Part shown: positions 43,527 to 62,392 of the stretch, one piece after another
How the letters are laid out: every line of letters starts with the position of its first letter
Position numbering within the stretch: the stretch's first letter is position 1
The notes under the pieces: model-generated
What the model was told of the DNA's origin: nothing
Databases searched by the model: none
The model's input: only the letters and a program-made list of their open reading frames with translations
Source: Ruegeria sp. AD91A
GTDB taxonomy: Bacteria; Pseudomonadota; Alphaproteobacteria; Rhodobacterales; Rhodobacteraceae
NCBI RefSeq assembly: GCF_003443535.1
Contig: NZ_CP031946.1
Span: 2,232,001 to 2,296,000, forward strand
DNA: 64,000 nucleotides
Direction of reading: 5' to 3'
Program-made: the position numbers and the translations under genes

Positions 43527-44654
43527 TTAATAAGGTGCCTTGGACAGCGTCATCAAAAACGCAACTAAGTCTGCAATCTCTTGCTCAGACAAATTCAATT
43601 GCGAGAGAATGGCTTCACCGTCGGCGTGCAGCCTTTCCGTATTGATTTTGCTGTAATGTCGGATCACAGCGTTCAGATCCTTTAGGCTGCCGTCATGCAT
43701 GTACGGTGCGGTTTCAGCCACTCCACGCAGGCTGGGCGTGCGGAAGGTTCCAAATTCAGCGTGGCTCCGGCGTACATTTCGAACCGCCCAAGCACCTTGC
43801 TTATCCGGATCGTCATTCCAGTCGCCGTCCAGTGTATAGAGGCTTGAGAGCAAAAAGTTCAATCCACCAAACCGACCTTCGTCGACCTCGGTTTCATTCA
43901 GAAAATATGGTACACTGGCATCGTGGAACTCATTGTTGGAAAACCTCGGGCCGTTGTGGCAAAATACGCAATTCCCGCGCCCTAAAAACAGCTGAAGACC
44001 TCGCTGGGCTGCCTCAGGGTAGTAGGCAGCCGCTGGAAAATCTCGACGCTCTAAGGCATCGCGAAAATCGTCAAACTGCGTCCGGTCTGTAACCAAAATC
44101 TCCAAGTAAGCCGAAAGAGCTTTCGCGGCATTCACCAGAACAAGCTCTGGGCCCTGATTTTGGATGACGCCAAAAATAGCTTCAAAGTCATCAATGTAGG
44201 CACTTTCAGACATTGCTGTTTTTAGGCTTTCGGGGCTGTGCGCCATCTCTTGTTCTTCGATGATCGGATGCAGGCTGGCTGCCCAAAGGTTATCGCTTTT
44301 GCCACCCCACCCATACCAGCGGAGTCCGGCCAGGTTCCGCAGTGATGGAGTGTTTCGGTCCAACAGTACACGGCCGAGCGCCCGCGCCTCCGACGTTGCA
44401 AACGCCTGTTCAGGATCATGACAACTTGCACAAGAAAATGCACCGTCGACGGATAACACCGGATCGTTGAATAAGGCCTCTCCAAGCGCGATCGCTCTGG
44501 CATTGTTCGAAACCCTATTGCTTGGGTCTGACTGGAAGGATGGTGGCCACGGCCCAAAGGAAAGCGTTTGTTCAATTTCGTCTGCAGATAACAAGACCTC
44601 TGCACGCACTGCCCCTGTCAAGGCTATGAGCGCAGCTGTAACCCACAGCTTCAT
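43527..44654 (-). CDS. Di-heme cytochrome c peroxidase/MauG-family protein
   Basis: This 375-residue periplasmic protein starts with a signal peptide (MKLWVTAALIALTGAVRAE) and has two heme c sites, CASCH (75-79) and CVFCH (229-233), the spacing of the CcpA/MauG superfamily. Members reduce hydrogen peroxide or oxidise a partner protein through high-valent heme. The start at 44652-44654 overlaps the upstream YtkA-like gene by four bases. It is the last gene of a ten-gene leftward operon, next to two other exported proteins. Confidence 0.87.
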   Translation of the reverse strand: MKLWVTAALIALTGAVRAEVLLSADEIEQTLSFGPWPPSFQSDPSNRVSNNARAIALGEALFNDPVLSVDGAFSCASCHDPEQAFATSEARALGRVLLDRNTPSLRNLAGLRWYGWGGKSDNLWAASLHPIIEEQEMAHSPESLKTAMSESAYIDDFEAIFGVIQNQGPELVLVNAAKALSAYLEILVTDRTQFDDFRDALERRDFPAAAYYPEAAQRGLQLFLGRGNCVFCHNGPRFSNNEFHDASVPYFLNETEVDEGRFGGLNFLLSSLYTLDGDWNDDPDKQGAWAVRNVRRSHAEFGTFRTPSLRGVAETAPYMHDGSLKDLNAVIRHYSKINTERLHADGEAILSQLNLSEQEIADLVAFLMTLSKAPY

Positions 44655-45028
44655 TTCAGCGTAATTTCTGACGAATAGAAAATTGATTGGCCATTGATGT
44701 CGACATCGACCTGCAGCTCCCACAAACCCGGCATGTGAAACAGCATATCATCAACGCGGAACGCTCCGCCGCCCAAGGCGGTAACATTGGGGGTATAGTT
44801 CATACCGTGTCGATGAGCCGGCATTATTGCATCCACATGCAATTGGCGAACAGCAGTCCCATCGCAAACTGAAACCAAAATGGAAAACGGTTGCGCCAAC
44901 GGAATTTCGTCGACAGCCAGATACACCTCGGGCGCGTTTTGAGCGTCCGAATTCATGCGTTGCCCCGTCGCCTCACAAGCAACGGCCGCGCTGGACCATA
45001 TAAGAAACCAAGCAGCGCAGTGGGTCAT
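44651..45028 (-). CDS. Exported YtkA/FixH-like protein
   Basis: This 125-residue protein has a signal peptide (MTHCAAWFLIWSSAAVACE) and an immunoglobulin-like YtkA domain (FSILVSVCDG; DAIMPAHRHGMNYTPNVTAL; MPGLWELQVDVDI). The MPAHRHGM-type motif is typical of YtkA-like proteins and could bind a metal. The start at 45026-45028 overlaps the stop of the amidohydrolase gene by four bases, and its own stop overlaps the peroxidase start. It is probably a periplasmic partner of its two neighbours. Confidence 0.75.
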   Translation of the reverse strand: MTHCAAWFLIWSSAAVACEATGQRMNSDAQNAPEVYLAVDEIPLAQPFSILVSVCDGTAVRQLHVDAIMPAHRHGMNYTPNVTALGGGAFRVDDMLFHMPGLWELQVDVDINGQSIFYSSEITLK

Positions 45029-45831
45029 TCTGATGCCAGCAAACGTTCTGCGTTGGCATAGGCAATGTTGTCTGCGATCTGGTCCGGCAACAAATCCAAC
45101 CATTCACGCGAAAAATCGGCATGAGGGCCTACGTAGTACCAACGTTCAGGTGCGAACGTATCCGTACCAACCATGAAACGATCCGGATGGGCTTCGAAAG
45201 CCTCCTTCCAATCGGGGTCAATTCTGCCTCTTGAAGCCATGTCTGAACGAAACGCCAGGTCGGCCCAAAGCCTGGGATAGGTATCCAGCGCGTCAACAAC
45301 ACTCGCTGGATCATCAAAGCCAGAGTGGGCCCACAGTACCCGAGCTTCAGGCCAGGTTTCGAAGATCAGGTCAACTGCCTCTCGATCGCCGTGGTGGTGT
45401 AGAATGAGGTTCCGCTCTTTCGCCAGTGCAATCATGCGCTGGATAACCGGCGTCTTAATGTCGTCTCCGTAAGCGTGAAACTCGCCGATGGCTTCGTAGT
45501 CGTTCTTGGCCAGATTTGCTTCCAAATAGTCGATTACAGTTTCATCGTGCATCCAGGTGTTGATTTCACCGCGGCGACGGTAAGGGCGCAGTGCTGGCAC
45601 GACTATATCTGGTGCTGCGGCCAACAATAGTTGAGTGCCATTGTCATCCGAGCTGGAGACCAGGGCTTTACGAACGCCCGCATCCCGAAGGATTTTGGCC
45701 ACCTGTTCGGGAGGAACCAGTTTGACGGCATCGTGGCTGTAATGAATATGCGCGTCAAAGATCGGGCGCTCTTCTGCGATAGCACTACTGCAAATCAGCG
45801 CGGCACCTAATATGAAGATATGTTTCAGCAC
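45025..45831 (-). CDS. Exported amidohydrolase-family protein
   Basis: This 268-residue protein has a signal peptide (LKHIFILGAALICSSAIAEE) and an amidohydrolase_2 barrel: metal pair HIH in FDAHIHYSHD, HHHGD, AHSGFDDP and the C-terminal Asp in VGTDTF. It would hydrolyse or decarboxylate a substrate in the periplasm, unlike its usual cytoplasmic relatives. GTG at 45829-45831 is chosen because GAGGAGG lies six bases upstream; the in-frame TTG at 45846 lies in that ribosome site. It follows the dioxygenase gene by 21 bases. Confidence 0.8.
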   Translation of the reverse strand: MLKHIFILGAALICSSAIAEERPIFDAHIHYSHDAVKLVPPEQVAKILRDAGVRKALVSSSDDNGTQLLLAAAPDIVVPALRPYRRRGEINTWMHDETVIDYLEANLAKNDYEAIGEFHAYGDDIKTPVIQRMIALAKERNLILHHHGDREAVDLIFETWPEARVLWAHSGFDDPASVVDALDTYPRLWADLAFRSDMASRGRIDPDWKEAFEAHPDRFMVGTDTFAPERWYYVGPHADFSREWLDLLPDQIADNIAYANAERLLASE

Positions 45832-45852
45832 CTCAAGCCTCCTCAATATCGT

Positions 45853-46719
45853 TCAGACTTTGGCAAGCCTCACATCGAACTTCACGTGCAAGAAAGGTTC
45901 AGTGATCTTACCAGAAAGCTCCATGCCATCGGGAAATTCTGAAACTGGCCTTTCAACATAGGTCATCACCAGATCGTCGCGCACGCCAAACACCGTGTCT
46001 TCATCCAGATAGGGATCATCGTCGGGAAATATTTCTGTCACCAACGAGCGATAACCCGGGGCCTTAATGATGTAGTGCAAGTGCGACGGTCGCCAGGGAT
46101 GGCGGCCGCAGGCGCGCAGGATATCCCCAACCGGCCCGTCAGATGGTACAGTGTATTCCACTGGCTTGACAGTGGTGAAAGCATAGCGGCCATCTGAGCC
46201 GACCGTCATCAAGCCATGAAAAGAATAGGTATCCTGTTCCTCATCCTGACTGGCGTAAAGCCCGTTTGGCGCGGTTTGCCAAATGTCGAGCTCAGCACCC
46301 GCAATCGGATTGCCCTTTGTATCCCGGATCACGCCTTCGGCCAGCAGAACCGGCCCTCCATAGTGGCGTTTCATATCGCCACCGATCGGCAGCGGGGGTG
46401 CGCCAGAGACATGGAATGGCCCCAGCACGGAGGAACTGGTCGCGTCAGGGCTGGAATGCAGCATATCCACCAAAGACGACAGGCCTAGCACATCCGAGGC
46501 CAGAACAAACTCGTGCCTGTCTTCTGTTTCTATGGCGGCGCACCCCTCAAGAAACGCTATTCCTGCGCGCCATTCGTCATGTGTCAGATTGGTCTCACGG
46601 GCAAAACCATGAAGGTGTTTGACCAGAGACCCCATGATTTCACGCATCCTTGGATCGGTATCTTTGGACAAGTACCCCATGAAAACGTCGGTGATATTGT
46701 CTGAGGTAACAGAGCGCAT
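45853..46719 (-). CDS. Intradiol ring-cleavage dioxygenase (hydroxyquinol/catechol type)
   Basis: This 288-residue cytoplasmic enzyme has the dimerising N-terminal helical domain (residues 5-95, Dioxygenase_N type) and the catalytic beta-sandwich with non-heme Fe(III) ligands Tyr155, Tyr189, His213 and His215 (PSHLHY). The layout fits hydroxyquinol 1,2-dioxygenase or catechol 1,2-dioxygenase. AAGGAGG precedes the start. It lies between dctM (10 bases) and the exported amidohydrolase. No maleylacetate reductase or muconate cycloisomerase is found here, so the product's fate is unclear. Confidence 0.88.
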   Translation of the reverse strand: MRSVTSDNITDVFMGYLSKDTDPRMREIMGSLVKHLHGFARETNLTHDEWRAGIAFLEGCAAIETEDRHEFVLASDVLGLSSLVDMLHSSPDATSSSVLGPFHVSGAPPLPIGGDMKRHYGGPVLLAEGVIRDTKGNPIAGAELDIWQTAPNGLYASQDEEQDTYSFHGLMTVGSDGRYAFTTVKPVEYTVPSDGPVGDILRACGRHPWRPSHLHYIIKAPGYRSLVTEIFPDDDPYLDEDTVFGVRDDLVMTYVERPVSEFPDGMELSGKITEPFLHVKFDVRLAKV

Positions 46720-46729
46720 CTTGGCCTCC

Positions 46730-48034
46730 TTATATCAGGGCAAGGCTGAGGATCGGGAATTCGATCAGAATGAACAGAACGATCAGCATCACGAACGCAA
46801 AGGGAAGTGCGCCCATGAAGACGTCCATTAGCGATATGCGGTCATCGTTGATCGTGGATTTGATGACGAAACAGGATATGCCTAGCGGCGGGGTCAAAAG
46901 TCCGATTTCAGCGCCGACAACGGTGATGATACCGAACCAGATCAGCGACATATCCAGAGCTTCGGCCATGGGCAGAAACAGCGGGACAACGATCAGAATG
47001 ATGGACGCCGTATCGAGTAGTGTTCCCAAAAAAAGCATCAAGAGGACGTAGAGCAGCATGATCGACCAAAAGGACGCTGAATTCCCCGCAAGCAAGTCTT
47101 GCAACTGATTGGGCAGCCCGGCCAGTCCCAGCATGCGGCTGTAAATCGAAGCTGCCGTAATCAGGAACAAAATCGCCGCTGTAATGTGACCGGTTTCCAG
47201 CAACGCTTCCCAGAACGCTCTTGGTGTCATGGACTTGCGCACAACTGCGATCACGAGCGCAACCAGTGCCCCGGCGGCACCCGCCTCGACAGCGGTTAGC
47301 CATCCTGTGTAAATGCCACCGAGCACTACCGTGATAATGAACAATGTGGGCAGGGTCTTAGATGCGATCTCGCGCCCGGACATCCATTCGGTGTCTTCGA
47401 CGACCCGGCCGCCCACAAATGCAGGTGTGAAGCGGCCCATCAACCAGATCGCGCCCACATAAGCTATCGCCAGCATGATACCGGGTATTACTCCCGCCAG
47501 AAACATGTCCCCTACGGACTGTTCGGCGACAAAGGAATAGATGATCAGCATCGCCGAGGGTGGAATAATCATCCCCAAAACCGACGACCCGGCCACAACC
47601 CCAACCGCAAAACGTGGATTATATGCCTGCGCCATCATCTGCGGGACCGAGACCTTGGTGAACACTGATGCGGACGCAATGGACGACCCGGTAACGGCCG
47701 CAAACACGGCGTTTGCTCCGACGGTCGCCATTCCGATACCACCTTTGACCTTGCGAAACCGCATGGTCATGACTTCGTAAATGTCCCTGCCTAGTCCCGC
47801 TTTTGAAACGATGAGACCCATAAAGGTAAACAGCGGGATTGTCGCGAAACTGTATTCCATCGCACTGTCGCCCACCGCAACCTTCAGCAGGTTGAGCGCA
47901 AGCGTGAAGTTGTCCCGCATCAGCCAGATCGACACGAAGGAGACCACGCCCAAAGCAATCGGAATGTAGACACCTGCGTAGATCAAAAAGACGATGGCAA
48001 TGACCGAGATCAGGCCAATCTCAATCGGCGTCAT
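46730..48034 (-). CDS. dctM: TRAP transporter large permease DctM
   Basis: This 434-residue inner-membrane protein has about twelve hydrophobic segments and DctM signatures (FTFMGLIVSKAGLGRDIYEV; GSSVLGMIIPPSAMLIIYSF; LLTPPLGISCFVIKS). It overlaps dctQ by four bases (ATGA). With the DctP and DctQ upstream it forms a second TRAP transporter, here inside the malonate/aromatic-type operon, and may bring in the substrate of that pathway or malonate itself. Confidence 0.92.
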   Translation of the reverse strand: MTPIEIGLISVIAIVFLIYAGVYIPIALGVVSFVSIWLMRDNFTLALNLLKVAVGDSAMEYSFATIPLFTFMGLIVSKAGLGRDIYEVMTMRFRKVKGGIGMATVGANAVFAAVTGSSIASASVFTKVSVPQMMAQAYNPRFAVGVVAGSSVLGMIIPPSAMLIIYSFVAEQSVGDMFLAGVIPGIMLAIAYVGAIWLMGRFTPAFVGGRVVEDTEWMSGREIASKTLPTLFIITVVLGGIYTGWLTAVEAGAAGALVALVIAVVRKSMTPRAFWEALLETGHITAAILFLITAASIYSRMLGLAGLPNQLQDLLAGNSASFWSIMLLYVLLMLFLGTLLDTASIILIVVPLFLPMAEALDMSLIWFGIITVVGAEIGLLTPPLGISCFVIKSTINDDRISLMDVFMGALPFAFVMLIVLFILIEFPILSLALI

Positions 48035-48582
48035 TCTGCGGCCTCGTCATGTTCAGGGGTGCGAATAAGTTGCGGACGGTCCTGCGCCGTGACGACCTTG
48101 AGCAGGAAGATCACGCAGGCAAGCGCAGTACCGCACGCGATGACCAGTTTGACCGGCCACCATGGCAATGTGAAAAGACCGGGCACTCCGAAGTAGTCCT
48201 GTGTCTGCCACATGTGTAGAAATTCAGGGAATGTCACATAGGCAACCAATGCCATGAAGATCGCCGAGATGGCATTGATGATGCGCCTCAGGTTGGCTGT
48301 CAAGCCCGGGCGACGATGGTGTAGCAGGTTCAGGAACCCGTCCGAGCGTGTTAACCGATCTACTCTGACGACGTCGGCCAACTGCAAGAAAACGATCATC
48401 ACGACCGAAAACTGGACCATCTCGTAGGTCCCGCGCAGAGGGGCTGAAAACAGGCCACGCGCGATGACGTCAACATTCAGAATGACCACCAACGCAAGGA
48501 CGACGAGCGTACCCAAGGCGTTGGCGGCGATTGCGAGCGAATTGGCGACCCGCGACAGGCCAGCAACTGCGGTCTTCAGCAT
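48031..48582 (-). CDS. dctQ: TRAP transporter small permease DctQ
   Basis: This 183-residue membrane protein has four hydrophobic segments (LGTLVVLALVVILNVDVIARG; FSVVMIVFLQLADVV; IINAISAIFMALVAYVTF; KLVIACGTALACVIFLLKV) and the DctQ-like ARGLFSAPLRGTYEMVQ. It follows dctP by 30 bases and overlaps dctM. Length is normal for the family. Confidence 0.88.
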   Translation of the reverse strand: MLKTAVAGLSRVANSLAIAANALGTLVVLALVVILNVDVIARGLFSAPLRGTYEMVQFSVVMIVFLQLADVVRVDRLTRSDGFLNLLHHRRPGLTANLRRIINAISAIFMALVAYVTFPEFLHMWQTQDYFGVPGLFTLPWWPVKLVIACGTALACVIFLLKVVTAQDRPQLIRTPEHDEAAE

Positions 48583-48612
48583 GAAAGGCCCCTTTCCCGG
48601 ATCGCCGGACAG

Positions 48613-49686
48613 TTATTCGGCTGTCCAGTCACGCACTCCGGTGAAACCGGCGTCTTGAAGTTTGCCAAGGTAGGCGGCCAGCATCTCTGTGCCCTGCTCG
48701 CCGTTATCGTTCAGCGTCGCGGCCCATTCTTGCGCGACATTCGGCATGGCGTTTGCCCAAGCGGCACGGTCTTCGTCCGAAACTTCGACGATTGTGCCAC
48801 CCGCTTCAACATACGCATCCCGCGAAGCAGCGGCGCGGTCCATCGCGATGCCGGCGACATGGTCACGGTAGTCGATGGCGACGGCCTTCAACACGTCTTT
48901 GACTTCGTCCGGGAGGCTTGCCCAGTAGTCGGCATTGACGGTGATGGTCTTGGAATTCACCGCTCCCAGATCAGCCTTGAGCATGTAAGGCGCCACTTCC
49001 GCGATCTTAAACGTCTTTGCGGCTTCGGGCCAAAGCATGCCGCAATCGACGAGGCCGGTTTGAAGCATGTTGTAGAAATCGGTTAGTCCCCCGCGTACGC
49101 CGGCGGCATCCTTGATCCCTTCAAGATAACGCAGGTTCAGGCCTGCTCCCGCGATTTTGCGGCCTTCAAGATCGGCAACCGAAGAAACAGGTTCCGTGCA
49201 GAAAATTTGATATGTGTCGAGCACAACGCCCGTGGCAAGGTAAACTTGGTTCTGCGCAGCAAACTCGTTCTGCATCGCAGGGTATTCGCGCGCGATTTCA
49301 TCAACTGCCTTAGCCACGGCACGGGAGTCCGATGCCACGAAGGGTGTCGATCCCGAAATACCCTGGCTGGGCAGCTTAGAGGAATGAAAGATGGTTGTGA
49401 CGATACCAATGTCGCCAAGGCCAAGCTGAATCCCTTCCAGAACGCCTTTCGGCTTAACGATTGAACCGCCGTAGTTCTCTTGCCAGTTCATTTTATAGTT
49501 GCCGGAATCGCCCAGCCGTTTGTCCACTTCTGGAATGAAGAAGTTGGTGAACTCTTTGACCCACAACGCGCGGTCGGGATAGCCATCAATTACGACGGCA
49601 GAGATGGTCTCTTCTGCCGCGAGGGGCATCGCCATGATGCCTGCCAGAGCAGCGCCCACTAGGCTGCGTTTGGTCCAGTTTTTCAT
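48613..49686 (-). CDS. dctP: TRAP transporter substrate-binding protein DctP
   Basis: This 357-residue periplasmic protein starts MKNWTKRSLVGAALAGIMAM with a signal peptide cleaved probably after LAA near residue 24. The mature part shows DctP features (GVLEGIQLGLGDIGIVTT; GRKIAGAGLNLRYLEGI with a conserved arginine; LQTGLVDCGMLW). The stop lies inside a weak hairpin (GGACAG, 48607-48612, with CTGTCC, 48621-48626). It is the middle gene of the leftward operon, 33 bases after the OsmC gene. Confidence 0.9.
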   Translation of the reverse strand: MKNWTKRSLVGAALAGIMAMPLAAEETISAVVIDGYPDRALWVKEFTNFFIPEVDKRLGDSGNYKMNWQENYGGSIVKPKGVLEGIQLGLGDIGIVTTIFHSSKLPSQGISGSTPFVASDSRAVAKAVDEIAREYPAMQNEFAAQNQVYLATGVVLDTYQIFCTEPVSSVADLEGRKIAGAGLNLRYLEGIKDAAGVRGGLTDFYNMLQTGLVDCGMLWPEAAKTFKIAEVAPYMLKADLGAVNSKTITVNADYWASLPDEVKDVLKAVAIDYRDHVAGIAMDRAAASRDAYVEAGGTIVEVSDEDRAAWANAMPNVAQEWAATLNDNGEQGTEMLAAYLGKLQDAGFTGVRDWTAE

Positions 49687-49719
49687 TTCTCTCCTCCCAG
49701 AAAGTCGGGTCTTTTGTCT

Positions 49720-50181
49720 TTAATTGTTTGTTTTGACCCAGTTGACGGTCAGGTCCGTGCCTGCCGCTTCAAACAGTTTTGCGATGGCGCAATATTTAGC
49801 TGTCTCTTCGCCCACGCGTGTCAGCTCCTCCTGACTGGCGTGCGTCTCACAATTCACGGTGAGTTCGATTTCCGGAAACGGAACATCGATCTCTTCCTCC
49901 ATAAGGACACCGCGCCGATCCAGCCTGCATTTCGCGTCGATTGTCACCGTGCCGAGTTCAACTCCCAACCGATGTGCGTTCTTGTGCCCGATGACATTCG
50001 TACAGGCGATCAGGGCTGCCATTGCGGTTTCGGTCGGAGACGGACCAAGATTTGTCCCGCCGCGTTCGACGGGTTCATCGACAACAACATCAAGATCGCG
50101 AATTGGTATCTCAGTCCGCGCATGAGTCGGGCATTGAGCTGTCGTGCGGTACGTCACGACAGGTTTTACTTTCATAGCCAC
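49720..50181 (-). CDS. OsmC-family protein
   Basis: This 153-residue protein has the OsmC/Ohr fold: SPTETAMAALIACTNVIGHKNA carries the first redox cysteine, and CETHASQEELTRVGEETAKYCAIAKLF carries the second region with Cys. Such proteins reduce organic hydroperoxides or bind reactive acyl groups. GTG at 50179-50181 is favoured over ATG at 50175 because AGGAGG lies seven bases before it. It lies between the nitroreductase (12 bases) and dctP genes. It may protect against peroxides formed in the pathway. Confidence 0.83.
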   Translation of the reverse strand: MAMKVKPVVTYRTTAQCPTHARTEIPIRDLDVVVDEPVERGGTNLGPSPTETAMAALIACTNVIGHKNAHRLGVELGTVTIDAKCRLDRRGVLMEEEIDVPFPEIELTVNCETHASQEELTRVGEETAKYCAIAKLFEAAGTDLTVNWVKTNN

Positions 50182-50193
50182 AGCGTCACCTCC

Positions 50194-50859
50194 TCATGCA
50201 TAAGAGCAAACCTTTTCGAATGGAAAACGTGGAAGCTTCTGGAACAATCCGGTCTCGTCCGCGTAGCCCAGATTGCATAGAAAATTGGACTTGAGCGTCG
50301 TGCCCACAAAGAACTCCTCGTCGACGATCTTGTTCGAAAAACCTGACATGGCGCCGACGTCCAACCCGACAGCCCGGGCCGCAATCATGAAGTAAGCGCC
50401 CTGAAGCGTGCCATTTCGAAAGGCCGTGTCTGCCACGTAGTCGGGCTTGTTTTCGAACAATGGCCGACGGTCTTCGTGCGGGAAAAGAAAGGGCAGTTCC
50501 TTCCAGAAATCCATGTCATAGGCAATGATCGCCGTGACCGGAGCATCCATCATCTTTGGCACATTCTTCGGCTTTAAAGACTTTGCAAGCCGCTCTTTCC
50601 CTTCGAGACTCTTCACGAAAACGAAGCGCGCGGGCAACGTATTCATGCTGGTCGCGCCGTTGATCGTGATGTCGTAGATCTCTTCAAGTAGGTCGTCAGA
50701 AACAGGCTTGTTGGTCCACGCGTAGTGCGATCTGGATTCGCGTAAGATCAACGCAATCGCGTCTTCCGACAAGCGTGGAATGCGTTCGCGCAGATCGCGG
50801 TGATCTTGCTGCGCCTTGGCGCGAAGTGCCTCCAGCTCTGCTCCGGTTGGTGCGCTCAT
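50194..50859 (-). CDS. RutE-like nitroreductase (malonic semialdehyde reductase type)
   Basis: This 221-residue FMN protein belongs to the nitroreductase family, resembling RutE (ITINGATSMNTLPARFVFVKS; AYDMDFWKELPFLFPHE; GTLQGAYFMIAARAVGLDVGAMSGF). RutE reduces malonic semialdehyde to 3-hydroxypropionate. In this setting, beside malonyl-CoA genes, a three-carbon semialdehyde is a plausible substrate, but nothing in the sequence proves it. Its start overlaps the FAH gene by four bases (ATGA). Confidence 0.82.
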   Translation of the reverse strand: MSAPTGAELEALRAKAQQDHRDLRERIPRLSEDAIALILRESRSHYAWTNKPVSDDLLEEIYDITINGATSMNTLPARFVFVKSLEGKERLAKSLKPKNVPKMMDAPVTAIIAYDMDFWKELPFLFPHEDRRPLFENKPDYVADTAFRNGTLQGAYFMIAARAVGLDVGAMSGFSNKIVDEEFFVGTTLKSNFLCNLGYADETGLFQKLPRFPFEKVCSYA

Positions 50860-51749
50860 GCTGCAGCCACCTTGGACTTGGCATCCTTTTCGTCAATGAT
50901 TGGGCTGGCGCAAATTCCGATGCCTTCAATCTCGACCTCAACGGTTTCGCCGGGCTTCAACCAACGGGGATTGGGCTTTTTGGCGTGTCCGACACCAGGC
51001 GGCGTACCCAGCGCAATCAGATCCCCCGGCTCCAAAGTGGTATATTCCGAAATCGTCGCAATTACCTGCCGGACACCCCAGATCATGTTGGCCGTGTTCG
51101 AGCTTTGCAGGATTTCGTCACCCACACGGCTTTCGATCTTCAGACCTGATGCCCCTTCGGGCAACTCATCCGGCGTCACGGTGAAAGGACCGATCGCGCC
51201 CGTGTCATCAAAGTTTTTGCCGGGCGTCCACTGAACGGTTTTGCGCTGATAGTCCCGCAGCGAACCATCGTTGAATACGGTGTAGCCAAAGACATAATTC
51301 AGTGCGTCCTGTTCCGAGATATGGCGGCCGCGTTTTCCAACGATCAGCATAAGTTCGGCTTCGTAGTCGAGCTTCTCCGAACAGGCAGGCCGCACCATAG
51401 GTTGCCCTGCCGCCATGATCGAGTTCTTCCCGCGCATGAACAGCGTCGGATATTCCGGGATGTCATACCCGCCTTCCTTGATGTGGTCCGTGTAGTTCAA
51501 CCCCATGCAAATGATCGTTCCGGGAGCGGCAACGGGCAATGCCGGAGTGATGGAAGACACGGGCATACTGTCTGCCGCGTCAATTTTGCCGACAAGTGAG
51601 TCGGCCAGTTCAGGCTTGGCTATCAATCCCATCAAATCCGAACCGACGGCAGGGTCCAAAGCCGTTAGATTCACTGCGTTTTCGCCGTTTACAGCAAAAA
51701 CCGCTGTGCCTTCCGAAGTCTCTCCCACCAGGTATTTCATTTTCACCAT
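50856..51749 (-). CDS. Fumarylacetoacetate hydrolase family protein
   Basis: This 297-residue enzyme has the C-terminal FAH domain: ICMGLNYTDHIKEGG, the metal-binding glutamates in LDYEAELMLIVGKRG, an Asp in NDGSLRDYQ and the C-terminal PGDLIALGTPPGVG. Members cleave carbon-carbon bonds of acylpyruvates or diketo acids, or isomerise or decarboxylate them. It is the first gene of the ten-gene leftward operon, divergent from the YCII gene with a palindrome between them. ATG at 51747-51749 is used; ATG three codons later is possible. Confidence 0.88.
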   Translation of the reverse strand: MVKMKYLVGETSEGTAVFAVNGENAVNLTALDPAVGSDLMGLIAKPELADSLVGKIDAADSMPVSSITPALPVAAPGTIICMGLNYTDHIKEGGYDIPEYPTLFMRGKNSIMAAGQPMVRPACSEKLDYEAELMLIVGKRGRHISEQDALNYVFGYTVFNDGSLRDYQRKTVQWTPGKNFDDTGAIGPFTVTPDELPEGASGLKIESRVGDEILQSSNTANMIWGVRQVIATISEYTTLEPGDLIALGTPPGVGHAKKPNPRWLKPGETVEVEIEGIGICASPIIDEKDAKSKVAAA

Positions 51750-51781
51750 CCATGTCAGTTCGCTTGATTTTTGCCGACTAT

Positions 51782-51797
51782 TTTGCCATATGTCAAA
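51782..51797. promoter_or_regulatory. TTTGNCATATGNCAAA palindrome, candidate MatR site
   Basis: TTTGCCATATGTCAAA is symmetric at 14 of 16 positions. It lies 33 bases before the FAH start on one side and 29 bases before the YCII start on the other, so it can control both operons. The GntR gene at 52255 in the rightward operon is the likely binder. Confidence 0.6.
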
Positions 51798-51825
51798 TAA
51801 TATCGATTTTTTCTGGAGACGCCAA

Positions 51826-52212
51826 ATGGTTGCTTGGGCAGACTACAAATCAGAAGCAAAAAGCCGCGGTGCGCTTGCTTTAGAGCTTTACGTCGCGCTG
51901 AGCACGCCAGCCAAAGCGCCCGAAGATGTAAAGGCGTCACTGCCAGATCACTTGGCGTATCAGGCGCAGTTGGAACGTTCGGGGCAGCTGGCTTTTGCAG
52001 GCCCCATGTCGGATGAAACCGGCGAGCATATGCAAGGAATGGGCCTGATCATCTATCGCGCCGACAACCTTGAATCCGCCCGGAAGCTGGCCGAAGACGA
52101 TCCTATGCACAAAAGCGGGGCACGTAGCTTTGTACTTCGGCGCTGGTTGATCAACGAAGGCTCGCTGAACCTTTCAGTTGGTCTATCGACTGGAACGAGT
52201 GCCTTCAGTTAA
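51826..52212 (+). CDS. YCII-related protein
   Basis: This 128-residue cytoplasmic protein has a YCII-like ferredoxin-type fold: LPDHLAYQAQLERSGQLAFAGP, then MGLIIYRADNLESARKLAEDDP and FVLRRWLINEGS, with the usual conserved His and Asp. GGAGACGCCAA precedes the start at 51826; the longer open frame is antisense to the FAH gene. YCII proteins are small accessory or lactone-isomerase-like enzymes. It is the first gene of the rightward operon, 42 bases before the GntR gene. Confidence 0.78.
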   Translation: MVAWADYKSEAKSRGALALELYVALSTPAKAPEDVKASLPDHLAYQAQLERSGQLAFAGPMSDETGEHMQGMGLIIYRADNLESARKLAEDDPMHKSGARSFVLRRWLINEGSLNLSVGLSTGTSAFS

Positions 52213-52254
52213 GTGCACTCAAGAGTATTTGCTGCGAAATAGGAACAGTCGGAT

Positions 52255-52920
52255 ATGGACGCCATGCTTGATACCGAGGGCAAAGAGACATCAGCCACTC
52301 ATGGAGCGTATCGAAGGCTGCGCGAAATGATCCTGACCGGAGAATTACCTCCAGGTCAAAAACTCAAGATCGAACAGCTTCGCGGGATTTTGGACACTGG
52401 CGCTAGTCCGGTTCGTGAAGCGCTTAGCCTTTTGACTTCAGACATGTTGGTCGAGCGGATTGATCAGCGCGGATTTCGGGCAGCGCCAGTCAGCAAGTGT
52501 AACTTCGAGGAAATACTTCTGTTGCGCTGCAACCTTGAGGAAACCGCGTTACGCGCTTCCATCACCAATGCGGATGCGGCCTGGGAAGATCGGCTTGTCT
52601 TACGTCACCATCATATGAAAAAGGCCAGCCAGAACGGGGCGCGGGACTTTGAGGACGCTCACAAGGCGTTTCATATGGCCTTGTTGGACAATTCGAAACT
52701 GCCGTTGCTGCTGCGGTATTGCTCGCAACTTTATGACCTGAACATTCGCTACCGCTATCTGGCGGCCGGCGGGTCGAGCTACAAAAAGCGAGACATCGCC
52801 GCCGAACATCAGCAAATCCTGGACGCCGCATTAAATCACGACGCAGACAGCGCAACTCGGCACCTAATCGATCACTACCGCCGAACAGGTGAGTACCTTA
52901 GCAGCCAGATGGAGCCCTGA
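52255..52920 (+). CDS. matR: GntR-family (FCD) regulator, MatR-like
   Basis: This 221-residue regulator has a winged helix-turn-helix (AYRRLREMILTGELPPGQKL; LRGILDTGASPVREALSLL) and an FCD ligand domain (LLRCNLEETALRASI; FHMALLDNSKLPLLLRY; EHQQILDAALNHD). Its place directly before malonyl-CoA decarboxylase and synthetase genes copies the rhizobial matR-matA-matB order, where MatR responds to malonate. One base separates its stop from the next start codon. The symbol is by context and family, not by close sequence match. Confidence 0.8.
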   Translation: MDAMLDTEGKETSATHGAYRRLREMILTGELPPGQKLKIEQLRGILDTGASPVREALSLLTSDMLVERIDQRGFRAAPVSKCNFEEILLLRCNLEETALRASITNADAAWEDRLVLRHHHMKKASQNGARDFEDAHKAFHMALLDNSKLPLLLRYCSQLYDLNIRYRYLAAGGSSYKKRDIAAEHQQILDAALNHDADSATRHLIDHYRRTGEYLSSQMEP

Positions 52921-52921
52921 A

Positions 52922-54220
52922 ATGCAGCGGAATTGGTTTCTGGGTGATCTACTAAACCAATTGCTGGACCGTCCCGACAATAGGCGTGACAAGGATGACA
53001 AACGGTCCATTGCCGAACTATGTGAGGCGCTTTTATCTGCGGAAGGTGAAGTATCAGGCTTCACGCTCGCGTCTACGATCCTTGAGCGCTACCACACCCT
53101 GAATGATGCGGAGAAACTAGACTTTTTTGTCTATTTGAACGACCAACTTGAGTTGGACGCAAATCAGCTTTCTGAAGCAGCCCGCCTCTACGCCAGTGAC
53201 CAAAGTGTCAATCTTTATCAAAGGCTTAGTGAAGTTTCAGAGCCACGGCGACAAGAGTTATTGCGACGGCTGAACCAGCCGTCTGGTGCGACGCAGGAAC
53301 TTGTCGCCATGCGCGTTGATCTGCTGCGCTTTCTCAAATCCAAACCGGAACTCAAGCGAACAGATATCGATTTCGTCCATTTATTGCGCAGCTGGTTCAA
53401 CCGGGGCTTTCTTGTCCTCAAGCAAATCAGCTGGGACACCCCTGCCCGCGTTCTGGATAAGATCGTCGCCTATGAAGCGGTGCACCAAATCAACGATCTG
53501 GACGATTTGCGGCGAAGGCTCTACCCGCCAGACCGTCGTTGTTTTGCGTTCTTCCATCCTTCGATGCCAGATGAGCCACTGATTTTTGTTGAGGTCGCTC
53601 TGACCGCCGAAATCCCGGATGCAATAGATACGCTTCTATCCGAAGCACCAGAACCGATCGAAGCCGAGCAGACAAAGGTCGCGGCGTTCTATTCCATTTC
53701 AAACTGCCAAAAGGGTTTGGCGGGCATCAGCTTTGGGAATCTATTGATAAAGCAGGTTGTGACCGAGCTTTCGCGGGAGCTTCGCGGGCTTGATACCTTT
53801 GTGACATTGTCGCCGATACCGGGGCTAAACCGGTGGCTGGCTGGTGAAACAGACAACCCGGAACACGGGCATGCCGCCGAGGCCGTGCTTGCAGAAACAG
53901 CAACACCGCAGGACGTGCGCGCGATGGCCGCCCGGTACTTGATGTTCGCCAAGCGCGAAGATGGCATGCCGCTTGACCCTGTGGCGCGCTTTCACTTGGG
54001 AAATGGTGCCGAGCTTCATGACCTGCATGCCCAGGCAGATCAGTCGCCAAACGGACGCGCCCAGTCCGGAGGTGCGATGGTCAATTACCTTTACGATTTG
54101 AACAAAACAGAACGTTACCACGAAGAATTCGCGACACGTGCCACGATCCAAGCCTCGCGTTCAATTCGCGCGGCTTCTACTGCGACGCTTGCGGTAAAGC
54201 CTAGGGAAAATACAGCGTGA
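52922..54220 (+). CDS. matA: Malonyl-CoA decarboxylase
   Basis: This 432-residue cytoplasmic enzyme converts malonyl-CoA to acetyl-CoA and CO2. It has the helical N-terminal domain (to about residue 165) and the acetyltransferase-like catalytic domain with YSISNCQKGLAGISFGN (catalytic Ser region), LSPIPGLNRWL, and FHLGNGAELHDLHAQAD with the catalytic His, ending in GGAMVNYLYDL. GGAG precedes the start at 52922; a start 11 codons earlier would overlap the matR end. It overlaps matB by four bases (GTGA). Confidence 0.92.
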   Translation: MQRNWFLGDLLNQLLDRPDNRRDKDDKRSIAELCEALLSAEGEVSGFTLASTILERYHTLNDAEKLDFFVYLNDQLELDANQLSEAARLYASDQSVNLYQRLSEVSEPRRQELLRRLNQPSGATQELVAMRVDLLRFLKSKPELKRTDIDFVHLLRSWFNRGFLVLKQISWDTPARVLDKIVAYEAVHQINDLDDLRRRLYPPDRRCFAFFHPSMPDEPLIFVEVALTAEIPDAIDTLLSEAPEPIEAEQTKVAAFYSISNCQKGLAGISFGNLLIKQVVTELSRELRGLDTFVTLSPIPGLNRWLAGETDNPEHGHAAEAVLAETATPQDVRAMAARYLMFAKREDGMPLDPVARFHLGNGAELHDLHAQADQSPNGRAQSGGAMVNYLYDLNKTERYHEEFATRATIQASRSIRAASTATLAVKPRENTA

Positions 54221-55740
54221 CTAATACACTTTACGACAGTTTGTTTGCCCGCCACAAGGGCAACACGGCTCCATTCCTGCAACTCGATAATGGCCAGGTG
54301 GTCACTTATGATGAGTTTCTGCAGCGCACCGCGCAAATCGCGCATGTCTTGCAGAACAGTGGAGTTTCCCCTGGCAGTCGCATCGTTGTGCAAGCGCCCA
54401 AGCAGGCCGACACGATTGCGCTCTATGCCGCTTCGGTTCGGGCAGGTGCTGTCTACCTGCCCCTAAACACTGCCTATACCATGGCAGAGTTGGACTATTT
54501 CATCTCTGATGCGCAACCTGCGTTAATCGTTTGCGACAGCCACGACAAAGTTGAATTCGAACAATTGGCGACCCGGTCTGGTGCAAAGCTGCTGACCTTG
54601 GGCGGCGAAAATCCAAGCTTGAGCCGCGAAGCGGACGCACAGCCTTGTGTATTCGAAACTGTGGATCGCGCGCCGGACGACCTCGCGGCGCTTCTTTACA
54701 CATCAGGTACCACGGGCCGGTCCAAGGGCGCGATGCTCAGCCACCGAAACCTGCTGTCCAATGCCCAAGCCCTTGTGGATTTGTGGGGTATCACCGACGC
54801 TGATCGCTTGATTCACGCGTTGCCCATCTTTCACACGCACGGGCTTTTCGTGGCGATGAACACATCACTACTCGCCGGTTCCAAAGTGCGGCTGATGAAA
54901 AAATTCGACACTGGAATGATCTTGGAGGAATTGCCCCACTCGACCCTTCTAATGGGAGTCCCCACTTTTTATTCCCGATTGCTGGCCGACGAAGGTTTCA
55001 CCGATGAGATCACAGAGAACATGCGTCTGTTTGTTTCCGGCTCAGCCCCGTTGCTGGCAGAGACCCATGTGGCGTTCGAAACGCGCACGGGCCACCGTAT
55101 CCTTGAGCGCTACGGTATGACCGAAACGAACATGAACACCTCTAACCCTTATGGCGGTGAGCGTCGCGCGGGAACTGTTGGTATGGCCATACCCGGCACC
55201 GAGGTGATCGTAACCGACCCTGAAACTGGAGAACCGCTGCCCCAGGGCGAGATCGGAATGATCGAAGTACGTGGCCCCAATGTTTTTCAGGGCTATTGGC
55301 AAATGCCCGAAAAAACGGCTGAAGAGCTTCGAGAAAATGGATTTTTCATCACCGGAGATCTGGGCCAATACAGCGAGGATGGCTACCTGTCGATTGTAGG
55401 TCGGTCAAAAGACCTGATCATCACTGGTGGTTACAATGTCTACCCTAAAGAAATTGAAGACGTTTTGAACGATGTCGATGGCGTTCAGGAATCGGCGATT
55501 TTCGGCGTCCCCGACAAAGACTTCGGTGAAGCAATCATTGCCGCTCTGGTTGCCGAGCCTGGAGCACAGCTTCAGGTGGAACAGATCGAGTCAATCATCA
55601 GAAGCAAGCTGTCGCGATTCAAACATCCTCGCCGCTACGAACTCGTCCAGGAGTTGCCGCGAAACACTATGGGAAAAGTTCAAAAGAACGCGCTGCGCGA
55701 ACGGTACGCGAACAAGGAACGGTCACCGGCGTTATCTTAG
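54217..55740 (+). CDS. matB: Malonyl-CoA synthetase
   Basis: This 507-residue adenylate-forming enzyme joins malonate to CoA using ATP. Motifs are LLYTSGTTGRSKGAMLSHRN (phosphate-binding loop), ERYGMTETNMNTSNPY, TGDLGQYSEDGYLSIVGRSKD and the C-terminal catalytic-lysine region PRNTMGKVQKNALR. The length fits MatB. It starts with GTG inside the end of matA. With MatA it forms the route malonate to malonyl-CoA to acetyl-CoA. Confidence 0.92.
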   Translation: MTNTLYDSLFARHKGNTAPFLQLDNGQVVTYDEFLQRTAQIAHVLQNSGVSPGSRIVVQAPKQADTIALYAASVRAGAVYLPLNTAYTMAELDYFISDAQPALIVCDSHDKVEFEQLATRSGAKLLTLGGENPSLSREADAQPCVFETVDRAPDDLAALLYTSGTTGRSKGAMLSHRNLLSNAQALVDLWGITDADRLIHALPIFHTHGLFVAMNTSLLAGSKVRLMKKFDTGMILEELPHSTLLMGVPTFYSRLLADEGFTDEITENMRLFVSGSAPLLAETHVAFETRTGHRILERYGMTETNMNTSNPYGGERRAGTVGMAIPGTEVIVTDPETGEPLPQGEIGMIEVRGPNVFQGYWQMPEKTAEELRENGFFITGDLGQYSEDGYLSIVGRSKDLIITGGYNVYPKEIEDVLNDVDGVQESAIFGVPDKDFGEAIIAALVAEPGAQLQVEQIESIIRSKLSRFKHPRRYELVQELPRNTMGKVQKNALRERYANKERSPALS

Positions 55741-55829
55741 GAAGCCCAGCCAGACGCTCAATCAAATCAAGACCTTCAGATCGGATACTACCCACCCTTC
55801 AGACTGCCAAACTCATCAGGAGATCCACA

Positions 55830-56717
55830 ATGACTCGCATGACGGCAAAAGACTTCGACCAGGAACTTCTGGACCTGTATGACTATTACGCGCACGGCAA
55901 GATCACCAAGCGCCAATTCCTGGACCGCGCAGGCAAGTTCGCGGTCGGCGGCGTGACAGCGGTCGCGCTGCTGAACATGCTCAGCCCGAACTACGCGATG
56001 GCTCAGCAAGTGTCGTTCAACGATCCCGATATCCACGCGGACTACATCACCTATCCTTCACCGAATGGAACCGGTGATGTTCGCGGATACCTTGTCCGAC
56101 CCGCCGGCGTTGAAGAGCCCCTGCCCGCGGTATTGGTAATCCACGAAAACCGCGGCCTTAACCCCTACATCGAAGATGTGGCGCGACGCTTGGCGAAAGC
56201 AGGCTTTATGGCTCTGGCTCCAGACGGTCTGACGTCGGCTGGCGGATACCCAGGCAACGATGCTGATGGGCGCGAGCTTCAAAAGACGGTCGATCGGGTC
56301 GAGCTGATGAATGATTTCTTCAATGGCTTTGAATACCTATTGAACCGAGAAGACTGCACCGGGAAGGTTGGCGCTGTGGGTTTCTGCTATGGCGGTGGTG
56401 TGGTCAGCGCAATTGCCGTAGCTTACCCCGAATTGGCCGCGGGCGTGCCATTCTATGGTCGCCAGCCAGCAGTTGAGGATGTGGCCAAAATTCAGGCACC
56501 GTTGCTGATTCAGATGGGAGAGCTTGATGAGCGCATCAACGCAGGTTGGCCGGATTTTGAAGCCGCCCTGCAATCCAACGGAAAGGTTTACGAGGCCTAC
56601 ATCTACGAAAATGCCAACCACGGTTTTCATAATGACAGCACGCCTCGTTACGACGAGGAAATGGCAAACCTAGCCTGGGACCGCACCATTGATTGGTTCA
56701 ACACTTACCTGAAGTAA
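55830..56717 (+). CDS. yghX: YghX-like dienelactone hydrolase family protein
   Basis: This 295-residue alpha/beta hydrolase matches E. coli YghX closely from memory: the N-terminal LYDYYAHGKITKRQFLDRAG, VLVIHENRGLNPYIEDVARR, and the end NHGFHNDSTPRYDEEM. The catalytic triad is Cys in GFCYGGG, Asp in GELDERI and His in NHGFH. The N-terminal segment KRQFL plus a hydrophobic stretch to YAMA resembles a Tat signal, so export is possible. It follows matB by 89 bases and may share its transcript or have its own promoter. Confidence 0.87.
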   Translation: MTRMTAKDFDQELLDLYDYYAHGKITKRQFLDRAGKFAVGGVTAVALLNMLSPNYAMAQQVSFNDPDIHADYITYPSPNGTGDVRGYLVRPAGVEEPLPAVLVIHENRGLNPYIEDVARRLAKAGFMALAPDGLTSAGGYPGNDADGRELQKTVDRVELMNDFFNGFEYLLNREDCTGKVGAVGFCYGGGVVSAIAVAYPELAAGVPFYGRQPAVEDVAKIQAPLLIQMGELDERINAGWPDFEAALQSNGKVYEAYIYENANHGFHNDSTPRYDEEMANLAWDRTIDWFNTYLK

Positions 56718-58080: not shown

Positions 58081-59019
58081 TCAGAAGGCGACGCGGTCTC
58101 CCCCTTTCAAATCAAGAATTTCCCTGGCTTCATCAGGCGTCGCCATCTGACTGCCCAGATCTTCTACGATACGCCGAATTTTGGCGACTTGCTGAGCGTT
58201 GCTTTCGGCCAACTTTCCACGCGAGATGAACAAGCTGTCTTCCAGGCCAACGCGAAGATTGCCGCCCATCTGACTTGCAGTGGTAGCAAGCGACATCTGC
58301 GCACCGCCGGCTCCGAGAACGGACCAGCGGTAGTCATCACCAAACAGGCGATCTGCTGTGCGTTTCATGAAGATCAGGTTGTCGACCTCAGGCCCGATAC
58401 CACCGAGGATTCCAAAGATGAACTGAATGAAAATAGGTGCTTTGAACAACCCGATATCCATGCAGAATTTTAAGTTATACAAATGGCCGACATCGTAGCA
58501 TTCATGTTCGAATTTGATGTCATGCGGCGCGAGCGTTTCTGCCGCTTCGCGAATGTCCCGGAACGTATTGCGAAAGATGTTCTGATCGGAGTTCGCGACA
58601 TAGTCTTTCTCCCAATCAAATTTCCAATCATCATCGCCATACCGGTTGGCCAAGGGGTGAAACGAGAAGTTCATCGAACCCATATTCATCGAGCACATTT
58701 CGGGGCTGAAAGTCTTGGCCGGATTGATCCGGTCCTGAATGGACAATGTCAGCGATCCACCGGTCGATAGGTTCACAACAGCGTCCGTTGCCTGTTTTAT
58801 ACGGGGCAGGAATGGCGCGAAGTCGTTCGGATCGACCGATGGCGACCCGTTCTCAGGGTTGCGGGCGTGGAGGTGTAGGATCGACGCTCCGGCCTCGGCG
58901 GCCTCGATCGCCTGCCGTGCGATGTCGTCGTAAGTGTACGGGAGCGCATCCGACATAGTTGGTGTGTGGATCGCTCCTGTTACAGCACATGTAATGATGG
59001 TCTTTTTCTGACGGGCCAT
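58081..59019 (-). CDS. Beta-keto acid cleavage enzyme (BKACE, DUF849)
   Basis: This 312-residue enzyme condenses a beta-keto acid with acetyl-CoA and releases acetoacetate plus a new acyl-CoA. Zn ligands His49 and His51 lie in ILHLHARNPENG; FEHECYDVGHL and GILGGIGPEVDNLIFM fit the family barrel. The start at 59017-59019 (MARQKKTIITCAVTG) is the usual BKACE opening; the frame is open further but runs into livM. It is the last gene of the HCDH-ABC operon. With an HCDH-family dehydrogenase upstream, a 3-hydroxy acid such as carnitine or a relative is the likely substrate. Confidence 0.9.
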   Translation of the reverse strand: MARQKKTIITCAVTGAIHTPTMSDALPYTYDDIARQAIEAAEAGASILHLHARNPENGSPSVDPNDFAPFLPRIKQATDAVVNLSTGGSLTLSIQDRINPAKTFSPEMCSMNMGSMNFSFHPLANRYGDDDWKFDWEKDYVANSDQNIFRNTFRDIREAAETLAPHDIKFEHECYDVGHLYNLKFCMDIGLFKAPIFIQFIFGILGGIGPEVDNLIFMKRTADRLFGDDYRWSVLGAGGAQMSLATTASQMGGNLRVGLEDSLFISRGKLAESNAQQVAKIRRIVEDLGSQMATPDEAREILDLKGGDRVAF

Positions 59020-59023
59020 AGGT

Positions 59024-60052: not shown

Positions 60053-60912
60053 CCGGAAATCCTCGGGAAGAGGCCGTTCGGACGAACGGCAAGAATAACA
60101 AGGAAAGCAATATGACCGGCAAGCACCTGCCAGCCCGGATCAATCTTGGCTCCGATGGTTTGCGCAACGCCAAGGATAACGCCGCCAATCAACGTACCCC
60201 AAAGGTTGCCTAGCCCACCGATGATAACGGCCTCAAAGCCAAAGATCAGGCGCCCCCCGCCAATGGAAGGATCAAAGCTTGTCCGAATACCAAGCAGGAT
60301 ACCGGCGATTGCCGTCACGCCGAGGGCCAGCGCCATTGCCAGGCCAAAGATATGCCGACGATTGAGACCCATGAGCTGTGCGATGTCTTGATTGTCAGAA
60401 ACCGCTCGGAACGCGCGCCCAAGTGCGGTGTGATAGAAGGTCCATTGCAGCCCCCAAATCACAGCGATGGCGATCCCGAAGGTCAGTAGCGGTAATATCC
60501 CGAGGGTCACACCGCCTACTGCAACGCTGGCTGTTTCCAGCGCACCAGCATTCAATGTTTGCGGGTCGGCCGTGTAGACCTCCAGCAATCCGTTCTGGAT
60601 AATTACACTCAGCCCGAAGGTCACAAGCAGCGGTGGAAGAATATCGTCGCCCAAAGTTTGGTTCAGTAGGCCGCGTTGAAGTGCATACCCAATCAGCGCC
60701 ATAGCGGGAACGACAATCACCAACGCGGCCATAGGATGCATCCCGGTCGCGGTCGTTACGGTCAGCCCGAGATATGCGGCCAACACAATCAGATCACCAT
60801 GAGCAATATTGACCAGCCTCATGACACCAAAGATCAACGACAGACCAGCAGCAAACAGCGCGTAAAGCCCACCCAGCAAAGTTCCCTGCACGATAGCGTT
60901 CAGCCATTCCAT
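60049..60912 (-). CDS. livH: ABC transporter permease LivH-like
   Basis: This 287-residue inner-membrane protein starts MEWLNAIVQGTLLGGLYALF, the usual LivH opening, and contains FGVMRLVNIAHGDL and GGLGNLWGTLIGGVILG. The start at 60910-60912 lies one base after the livF stop; the longer open frame overlaps livF. It overlaps livM by four bases. With LivM it forms the membrane channel of the importer. Confidence 0.9.
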   Translation of the reverse strand: MEWLNAIVQGTLLGGLYALFAAGLSLIFGVMRLVNIAHGDLIVLAAYLGLTVTTATGMHPMAALVIVVPAMALIGYALQRGLLNQTLGDDILPPLLVTFGLSVIIQNGLLEVYTADPQTLNAGALETASVAVGGVTLGILPLLTFGIAIAVIWGLQWTFYHTALGRAFRAVSDNQDIAQLMGLNRRHIFGLAMALALGVTAIAGILLGIRTSFDPSIGGGRLIFGFEAVIIGGLGNLWGTLIGGVILGVAQTIGAKIDPGWQVLAGHIAFLVILAVRPNGLFPRISG

Positions 60913-60913
60913 A

Positions 60914-62342: not shown

Positions 62343-62361
62343 GCTTCTCTCGGATGGAGGG

Positions 62362-62385: not shown

Positions 62386-62392
62386 TGTCTGG

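Follow-up and report, generated by a model that had tools for sequence, protein, structure and literature searches.

Aerobic catabolism of aromatic compounds is usually described as funnelling to beta-ketoadipate, to meta-cleavage products or to gentisate and homogentisate products. The gene cluster described here, from Ruegeria sp. AD91A, places an intradiol ring-cleavage dioxygenase beside enzymes of malonate activation, and it lies in a stretch of 64,000 nucleotides that is referred to below as the window (assembly GCF_003443535.1, contig NZ_CP031946.1, positions 2,232,001 to 2,296,000 of the forward strand). The closest described system on the ring-cleavage side is the lower pathway for hydroxyquinol (1,2,4-trihydroxybenzene) of the tcp, tft and pnp type, whose dioxygenase belongs to the same family and has the same metal ligands, and such pathways also have a nitroreductase-like gene (tcpB) and a YCII-family protein (TftG). 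A quinone-reductase role is ascribed to tcpB. It may, according to PMC3975901, encode a flavin reductase. Unlike the hydroxyquinol pathway, the cluster is without a maleylacetate reductase and has instead an FAH-family protein and malonate-activating enzymes, and its dioxygenase falls on another side of the family tree.

On the malonate side the closest system is the matRAB operon with a TRAP transporter on a Ruegeria plasmid (NZ_CP065362, locus L257), which likewise holds a GntR regulator, malonyl-CoA decarboxylase (MCD, MatA) and malonyl-CoA synthetase (MatB) in one locus. The TRAP transporter of the cluster differs from that of this operon, the binding proteins being 20% identical, so that the cluster has no mat-type malonate carrier, whereas operons of the L257 type are without a ring-cleavage operon. 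The individual proteins also have known counterparts. The FAH-family protein matches acylpyruvate hydrolases (L-2,4-diketo-3-deoxyrhamnonate hydrolase 8gsr, HpcE 1gtt and FAHD1) in fold, His-Glu pair and metal ligands, but with the rhamnonate-hydrolase model it scores 190.8 bits against a cut-off of 500. The TarP binding proteins for aromatic acids are the top structural and sequence matches of the TRAP binding protein, at about 22% identity. The YCII protein matches the fold of TftG, a 5-chlorohydroxyquinol dehydrochlorinase, at about 20% identity and a TM-score of about 0.5-0.65, but unlike TftG it shows no sign of chlorinated substrates. Every enzyme family of the cluster is already known; a description of the combination was not found in the open-licence PMC literature, as judged from titles and the starts of abstracts.

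The cluster consists of two divergent operons on either side of a 76-bp control region (51750..51825), with ten genes leftward on the minus strand, the first of which encodes the FAH-family protein and starts at 51749, and YCII-GntR-MCD-MatB rightward on the plus strand, starting with YCII at 51826. The original prediction, made from the letters alone, had described ten leftward genes that share a control region with a YCII-matR-matA-matB operon, and both the positions and the families hold. Our reading is that the locus may be an aromatic-acid catabolic regulon in which malonate arises from the ring-cleavage product, and we give this a probability of roughly 0.48. The comparison with relatives supports it through family membership, intact active-site residues, co-conservation of the genes, a shared palindrome and the position of the dioxygenase in its tree.

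Conservation of the core, the malonate genes and the putative operator

The synteny counts given here come from the best 80 of 129 dioxygenase relatives in named genomes, picked by similarity, and each count covers only the loci with enough flank. Beside the dioxygenase (45853..46719) the genes for the TRAP transporter were found almost without exception, DctM (46730..48034, PF06808) in 74/77 loci, DctQ (48031..48582, PF04290) in 73/75 and DctP (48613..49686) in 71/73. The other genes were nearly as constant, with the RutE-like reductase (50194..50859), the FAH-family protein (50856..51749) and the YCII-family protein (51826..52212) each in 70/72 loci, the OsmC-family protein (49720..50181), both cysteines of which are retained in 63/63 relatives, in 63/72 and the GntR/FCD regulator (52255..52920) in 68/71. 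Judged by these neighbourhoods, FAH-RutE-OsmC-TRAP-dioxygenase together with YCII and GntR is a conserved core in Rhodobacterales, in Roseibium and in a few more distant alphaproteobacteria, and the arrangement, which recurs in dozens of loci whose proteins are as little as about 50% identical, is far beyond chance. A Pacificitalea plasmid, annotated gene by gene, has the full set minus OsmC. In the distant locus L168, where the dioxygenase is 48% identical, the gene order is MCD-dioxygenase-DctMQP-GntR-OsmC-RutE-FAH, and in another distant genus MatB is beside the dioxygenase in three genomes (L175-L177) but not in the fourth, L172, where the contig is short.

In the window, MCD (52889..54220, PF05292 at 306.7 bits), which is the sole full-length MCD found in the genome, and MatB (54217..55740) are adjacent to each other as they are in mat operons. 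Separation of the two operons in relatives had been named beforehand as what would speak against a link between them. MCD was found beside the core in 47/70 loci, MatB in 46/69 and both in 43/69, so that either gene is adjacent in 50/69 loci and neither in 19/69. When 20 genomes without an adjacent MCD were searched, 14 were found to carry MCD elsewhere, 13 of them with MatB beside it; L052, L074 and L103, which also have no adjacent MCD, were outside this search. Ten of these 14 separate MCDs are in a classical mat operon with regulator, TRAP, MCD and MatB (one of which is cut by a contig end), three are in cluster-type MCD-MatB pairs at another place and one stands alone. Among genomes of the genus, a full-length MCD is present in 10/12 that have the cluster and in 3/25 that do not (Fisher p 4e-5, with relatedness not corrected for), and MCD of the cluster type in 7/12 and 0/25, respectively (Fisher p 8e-5, likewise uncorrected); this comparison leaves out G800-G816, seventeen genomes that were searched for MCD and not for the dioxygenase. 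These gene neighbourhoods give good support to a durable association of malonyl-CoA synthetase and decarboxylase with the ring-cleavage module, and the proposed link of ring cleavage to malonate metabolism is upheld by the conserved synteny as well as by the putative operator that is described below.

Whether plain malonate is the substrate of these two enzymes is a separate matter, since MatB and MCD might act on a related dicarboxylate from the pathway, such as a substituted malonate. MatB enzymes are promiscuous, and in the MatB and MCD trees most mat genes of the cluster group apart from the others, both of which would fit such a substrate. The cluster-linked genes fall in several groups, however, and those of Roseibium are among the classical malonate operons. 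In addition, the classical mat operon that is present in 10 of the 14 genomes with a separate MCD points to plain malonate, and MatB of the window is far above the cut-off for malonyl-CoA synthase (NF005702, 762 bits against 558). We consider a substituted malonate improbable. A remnant of a classical malonate operon was also seen in the same genome, on the second contig (706396-708191, L275), where the C-terminal part of an MCD is followed by a full-length MatB.

Between YCII and FAH the control region contains a palindrome, AATATCGATATT, which is exact in 53/70 loci, has one mismatch in 16/70 and two in the last one. The copy in the window, AATATCGATTTT (51799..51810), is one mismatch away from AATATCGATATT. 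All 11 congeners examined have an exact palindrome at a distance of about 5 kb from the dioxygenase, and 10 of these genomes hold no other exact copy. The genome studied here has a single perfect palindrome (C2:644713), near the gene for a cytochrome-c-domain protein, and it is probably there by chance. When GntR is beside the dioxygenase, as in Roseibium, L095 and L100, a palindrome that is exact or has one mismatch stands directly before GntR, and in Pacificitalea L164 it stands about 190 bp before GntR. Eleven exact sites lie outside the control regions. Those in L095, L100, L101 and L102 are before GntR, and those in L068, L069, L073, L075, L078, L081 and L082 are second exact copies, located between GntR and MCD. 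Three of the first six loci are named Yoonia; L082, also a Yoonia, has its copy at the same coordinate and was placed by coordinate only. In the distant locus L168 palindromes with one mismatch are near FAH and near GntR, and in L167 there is one near YCII. Neither of the two classical mat operons that were checked showed the palindrome.

The palindrome is conserved in the control region and it recurs before the regulator or before MCD, and therefore both operons look like one regulon, probably tied together by one regulator and one site at which binding is predicted. The label matR that had been given to the regulator stands in so far as a GntR/FCD regulator is present and accompanies the cluster and the putative operator in relatives; it is probably not a plain MatR but the regulator of the whole cluster, because GntR adjoins the dioxygenase in Roseibium. 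Extra exact palindromes were also seen in Pacificibacter (L267:1978 and L269:9529), between a gene for a TAXI-type binding protein and cupin-like and GST genes, the cupin-like genes scoring below the Pfam cut-off, which suggests that these sites may mark further members of the regulon.

The dioxygenase and the proteins around it

The dioxygenase of the window has the Dioxygenase_N and Dioxygenase_C domains and two Tyr and two His as iron ligands, and among solved structures it is closest to PnpC and to hydroxyquinol dioxygenases. Tyr155, Tyr189, His213, His215 and Arg210 are invariant in the 63 aligned dioxygenase rows, where the iron-ligand and first-shell positions are those which we take to correspond to positions in 1tmx. 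On the window's side of the tree, all 28 chosen rows share Val191 and Glu229. The first tree was built from 60 chosen loci and three of five hydroxyquinol-type PDB sequences (63 rows), the loci having been chosen partly for recognisable neighbours and 43 of the 64 wide loci having been taken in. The second, built by a quick method, had 85 rows, namely every one of the 64 wide loci (among them a decayed copy of the cluster, L185), 18 near loci and the same three PDB sequences. Near loci outside the trees were assigned to the window's side, all of them being at least 73% identical. The deep split between the two sides had support of 100/95 in the chosen tree and of 86 in the tree of all loci. 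All three characterised hydroxyquinol enzymes that were placed fall across this split from the window's dioxygenase, in a side with 44 wide loci, of which 19 have a maleylacetate reductase and 0 have mat genes. Of the 20 wide loci on the window's side, 7 carry MCD or MatB (one of them decayed) and 0 a maleylacetate reductase. By the trees and neighbourhoods the window's dioxygenase group is separate from the maleylacetate type, but not every part of its side of the tree is linked to malonate.

These results bear directly on a rival explanation, namely that the enzyme is an ordinary hydroxyquinol 1,2-dioxygenase, that the maleylacetate is handled by another reductase or by the FAH-family protein acting as an isomerase or hydratase, and that malonate comes from elsewhere in the substrate, e.g. 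from a side chain. The first-shell residues are equal to those of hydroxyquinol enzymes, the support of the split is only 86 with all loci, the binding protein DctP is like proteins that bind phenylpropanoid acids, compounds with side chains, and the RutE-like protein is shared with a cluster of the maleylacetate type, all of which this explanation would accommodate. What it would not lead one to expect is that a maleylacetate reductase of at least 45% identity was found in 0/80 near loci, and in 0/20 wide (far) loci on the window's side against 19/44 on the other side. The cluster was said from the start to have no gene for the maleylacetate pathway and that is correct for the cluster, and the genome as a whole offers no better match to a maleylacetate reductase than one of 30% identity that covers part of the protein. 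We regard an ordinary hydroxyquinol pathway as unlikely, but as the most probable explanation after our own.

The side observations on dioxygenase loci were as follows. In L185, the decayed copy, the genes for DctP, RutE, MCD and MatB are truncated. In L184 a gene like those for homocitrate and isopropylmalate synthases (HMGL family, L184:9129-10340) follows the dioxygenase and possibly represents another way of handling the ring-cleavage product. The exceptions L098 and L103 have a close dioxygenase with a TAXI-type transporter (NMT1_3 and DctM) and GST, the core being replaced; in L098, L103 and L104 the dioxygenases are about 74% identical to that of the window and are beside genes for a TAXI-type transporter and DUF1989, with GST in L098 and L103, and the Pfam assignment of these neighbours was made for L103.

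When the TRAP binding protein DctP was compared with solved structures, 8 of the top 10 rows (six entries) were binders of aromatic acids, led by TarP_Sse with cinnamate or coumarate; 4n6d gave a higher TM-score than the aromatic-acid binders. A conserved Arg (Arg186) is present in 70/70 relatives. Since DctP most resembles aromatic-acid binders, the TRAP transporter of the cluster is predicted to import an aromatic acid. The alternative that the locus serves malonate uptake, with TRAP and matRAB as its working parts and the aromatic genes as passengers, draws on the TRAP-bearing mat operons that exist in the genus. The identity of 20% between DctP and its mat-operon counterpart in the genus and its nearness to aromatic-acid binders make a malonate carrier unlikely, the TRAP genes accompany the dioxygenase much more regularly than the mat genes do, and the palindrome is missing from the two classical mat operons examined. 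Such a malonate uptake locus is very improbable.

An aromatic substrate, which had been proposed earlier, is supported by this likeness of DctP and also by ring hydroxylases in the operon of three relatives. In Cognatishimia L050 a ring hydroxylase of the MhpA type begins some 10 bp downstream of MatB, in line with GntR-MCD-MatB and reading in their direction, and it is 76% identical to the hydroxylase of Planktotalea L059, where, as in L094, an MhpA-type hydroxylase is directly after GntR. To judge from these gene orders, ring hydroxylation is tied to the same operon in L050, L059 and L094. An additional FAD hydroxylase like 2-hydroxybiphenyl monooxygenase is joined to the cluster in L058/L059, and GST-like and sulfatase-like genes are nearby in L059 and L094.

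The model of the YCII protein (mean pLDDT 80.7) has a ferredoxin-like fold, that of TftG and muconolactone isomerase, and it matches TftG at E 1.7e-5, ranked after an uncharacterised protein; its His and Asp are retained in 69/69 relatives. The hydrolase site of the FAH-family protein is complete (His89-Glu92, Glu130, Glu132, Asp161 and Lys178), its residues having been located by alignment to 1gtt and 8gsr. The His-Glu pair, presumably catalytic, and the acids that we take to bind the metal are retained in 73/73 relatives, with one exception of Asp to Glu.

The RutE-like FMN reductase, of the nitroreductase family, clears the NCBIfam cut-off for malonic semialdehyde reductase (NF003768, 252.6 bits against 152), and this is what stands behind the idea that the pathway gives malonic semialdehyde, reduced by the RutE-like protein as in pyrimidine degradation. 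The original prediction had allowed for malonic semialdehyde, but this now looks doubtful. The RutE-like protein is near the dioxygenase in 6/44 loci of the other side of the tree, none with mat genes and one with a maleylacetate reductase, its nearest solved structure by sequence is IstO, another FMN oxidoreductase, and MatB would not be needed for the semialdehyde. A role as malonic semialdehyde reductase is thus held unlikely, and the semialdehyde route as a whole we rate as quite improbable. Because it also occurs beside dioxygenases without malonate genes, and once with a maleylacetate reductase, the RutE-like protein is probably a quinone reductase.

The remaining genes of the leftward operon are an amidohydrolase (45025..45846, minus strand, PF04909) with a signal-like N-terminus as judged by eye, a small YtkA-like protein (44651..45103, minus strand) of uncertain start that scores 22.7 bits with PF13115, under the Pfam cut-off of 25.9, and a MauG/MbnH-like di-heme c-type protein (43527..44723, minus strand; PF03150, 111.5 bits) with two CXXCH motifs and also of uncertain start. 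This trio was found in 16/19 Ruegeria loci and in 0/53 others and, in these loci, is therefore a genus-level addition of accessory genes. A periplasmic heme module had been counted as part of the pathway, and its restriction to Ruegeria led us to reject that. Downstream of MatB is a peripheral YghX-family hydrolase of the dienelactone hydrolase superfamily (55830..56717, plus strand, NF041440), which the original prediction did not name, and a hydrolase of this type is near MatB in 11/17 Ruegeria loci. Further on, from 58081 to 63673 of the window and continuing to about 2298.7 kb of the contig (L186), lies a distinct catabolic operon next to an IclR regulator. It encodes a beta-keto acid cleavage enzyme (BKACE), a branched-chain-type ABC transporter, a 3-hydroxyacyl-CoA-dehydrogenase-like protein, an SDR and a cyclase; the BKACE exceeds the cut-off set for NF053538, a 3,5-dioxohexanoate model. 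This operon was rejected as part of the cluster, as it comes with a regulator of its own and as, in five other Ruegeria loci, operons related to it flank the cluster on the opposite side.

A proposed route from ring cleavage to malonate

In the pathway that we propose, the TRAP transporter would import an aromatic acid, the RutE-like reductase would hold the polyhydroxylated ring in the quinol form, the YCII protein would tautomerise the ring or eliminate a substituent, and the dioxygenase would open the ring. The FAH-family protein would then split the linear product so that one fragment is free malonate, which MatB and MCD would convert to malonyl-CoA and acetyl-CoA, and GntR on one operator would control both arms, presumably as a repressor that is released by an intermediate. 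The identity of the substrate and the order of the steps are what we infer here. MatB requires free malonate, and FAH enzymes typically cut acylpyruvates next to the keto group. From chemical reasoning, no FAH-type route from maleylacetate to malonate can be drawn without further steps, and 2,4-dioxoadipate is a candidate because it is a six-carbon linear diacid that an FAH-type enzyme would split into malonate. Cleavage of a ring of the 1,2,3,5-tetrahydroxybenzene type would give 2,4-dihydroxymuconate (2,4-dioxoadipate), an acylpyruvate, from which the FAH-family protein would release malonate and pyruvate (C3 + C3). This specific route is a tentative proposal, for which we would claim a modest chance. 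Should the aromatic acid retain its carboxyl group up to ring opening, the second product could be oxaloacetate or succinate in place of pyruvate.

Several observations weigh against malonate as the product of ring cleavage in this locus and have to be set beside the evidence for it. Comparison of neighbourhoods across Rhodobacterales, which the original prediction had called for, showed the core to be kept there with the mat genes often adjacent, but 6/20 of the searched genomes without an adjacent MCD have no MCD anywhere. These six retain a MatB-like gene of 58-70% identity, and two further genomes that bear the core, G385 and G579, are also without MCD. L166 has the core and MCD in a cluster without FAH, L184 has a cluster without FAH in a genome without MCD, and L167 has FAH in a genome without MCD; the genomes of L166 and L184 hold other FAH-family proteins of 39-44% identity. 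A palindrome with at most one mismatch was not found in L184, L182 or L175-L177 or in the control region of L166. The first-shell residues of the dioxygenase are identical on both sides of the tree and so do not support a differing product, and 11/20 wide loci on the window's side are without mat genes and core, one of which (L182) has FAH. The tree of all loci, in which the support of the split drops to 86 and unlabelled loci are on the window's side, therefore leads to slightly lower odds for a route from the ring-cleavage product to malonate and to slightly higher odds for an ordinary hydroxyquinol pathway. A second MatB is present elsewhere in this genome. No ring hydroxylase was found beside the cluster of this genome, and its only strong PF01494 ring-hydroxylase match is in a homogentisate cluster and was not assigned to the pathway. 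Finally, it is only suggestive from the trees that the mat genes joined the module several times, which we do not claim; approximately unbiased (AU) tests on 30 of the 73 MatB rows and 32 of the 70 MCD rows do not reject a single origin of the cluster mat genes (p 0.082 for MatB and 0.053 for MCD).

The route through 2,4-dioxoadipate would, at the same tentative level, bypass both maleylacetate and beta-ketoadipate and add a further intradiol lower pathway in marine alphaproteobacteria. The cluster, the putative operator and the pattern of presence and absence in relatives make the question directly testable. If the proposed link is true, functions would follow for several proteins whose present annotation goes no further than the family, namely a group of dioxygenases, a subfamily of FAH, a YCII protein and a TRAP transporter, and marine bacteria would have a conserved exit from the aromatic ring to malonyl-CoA, the building block of fatty acids.

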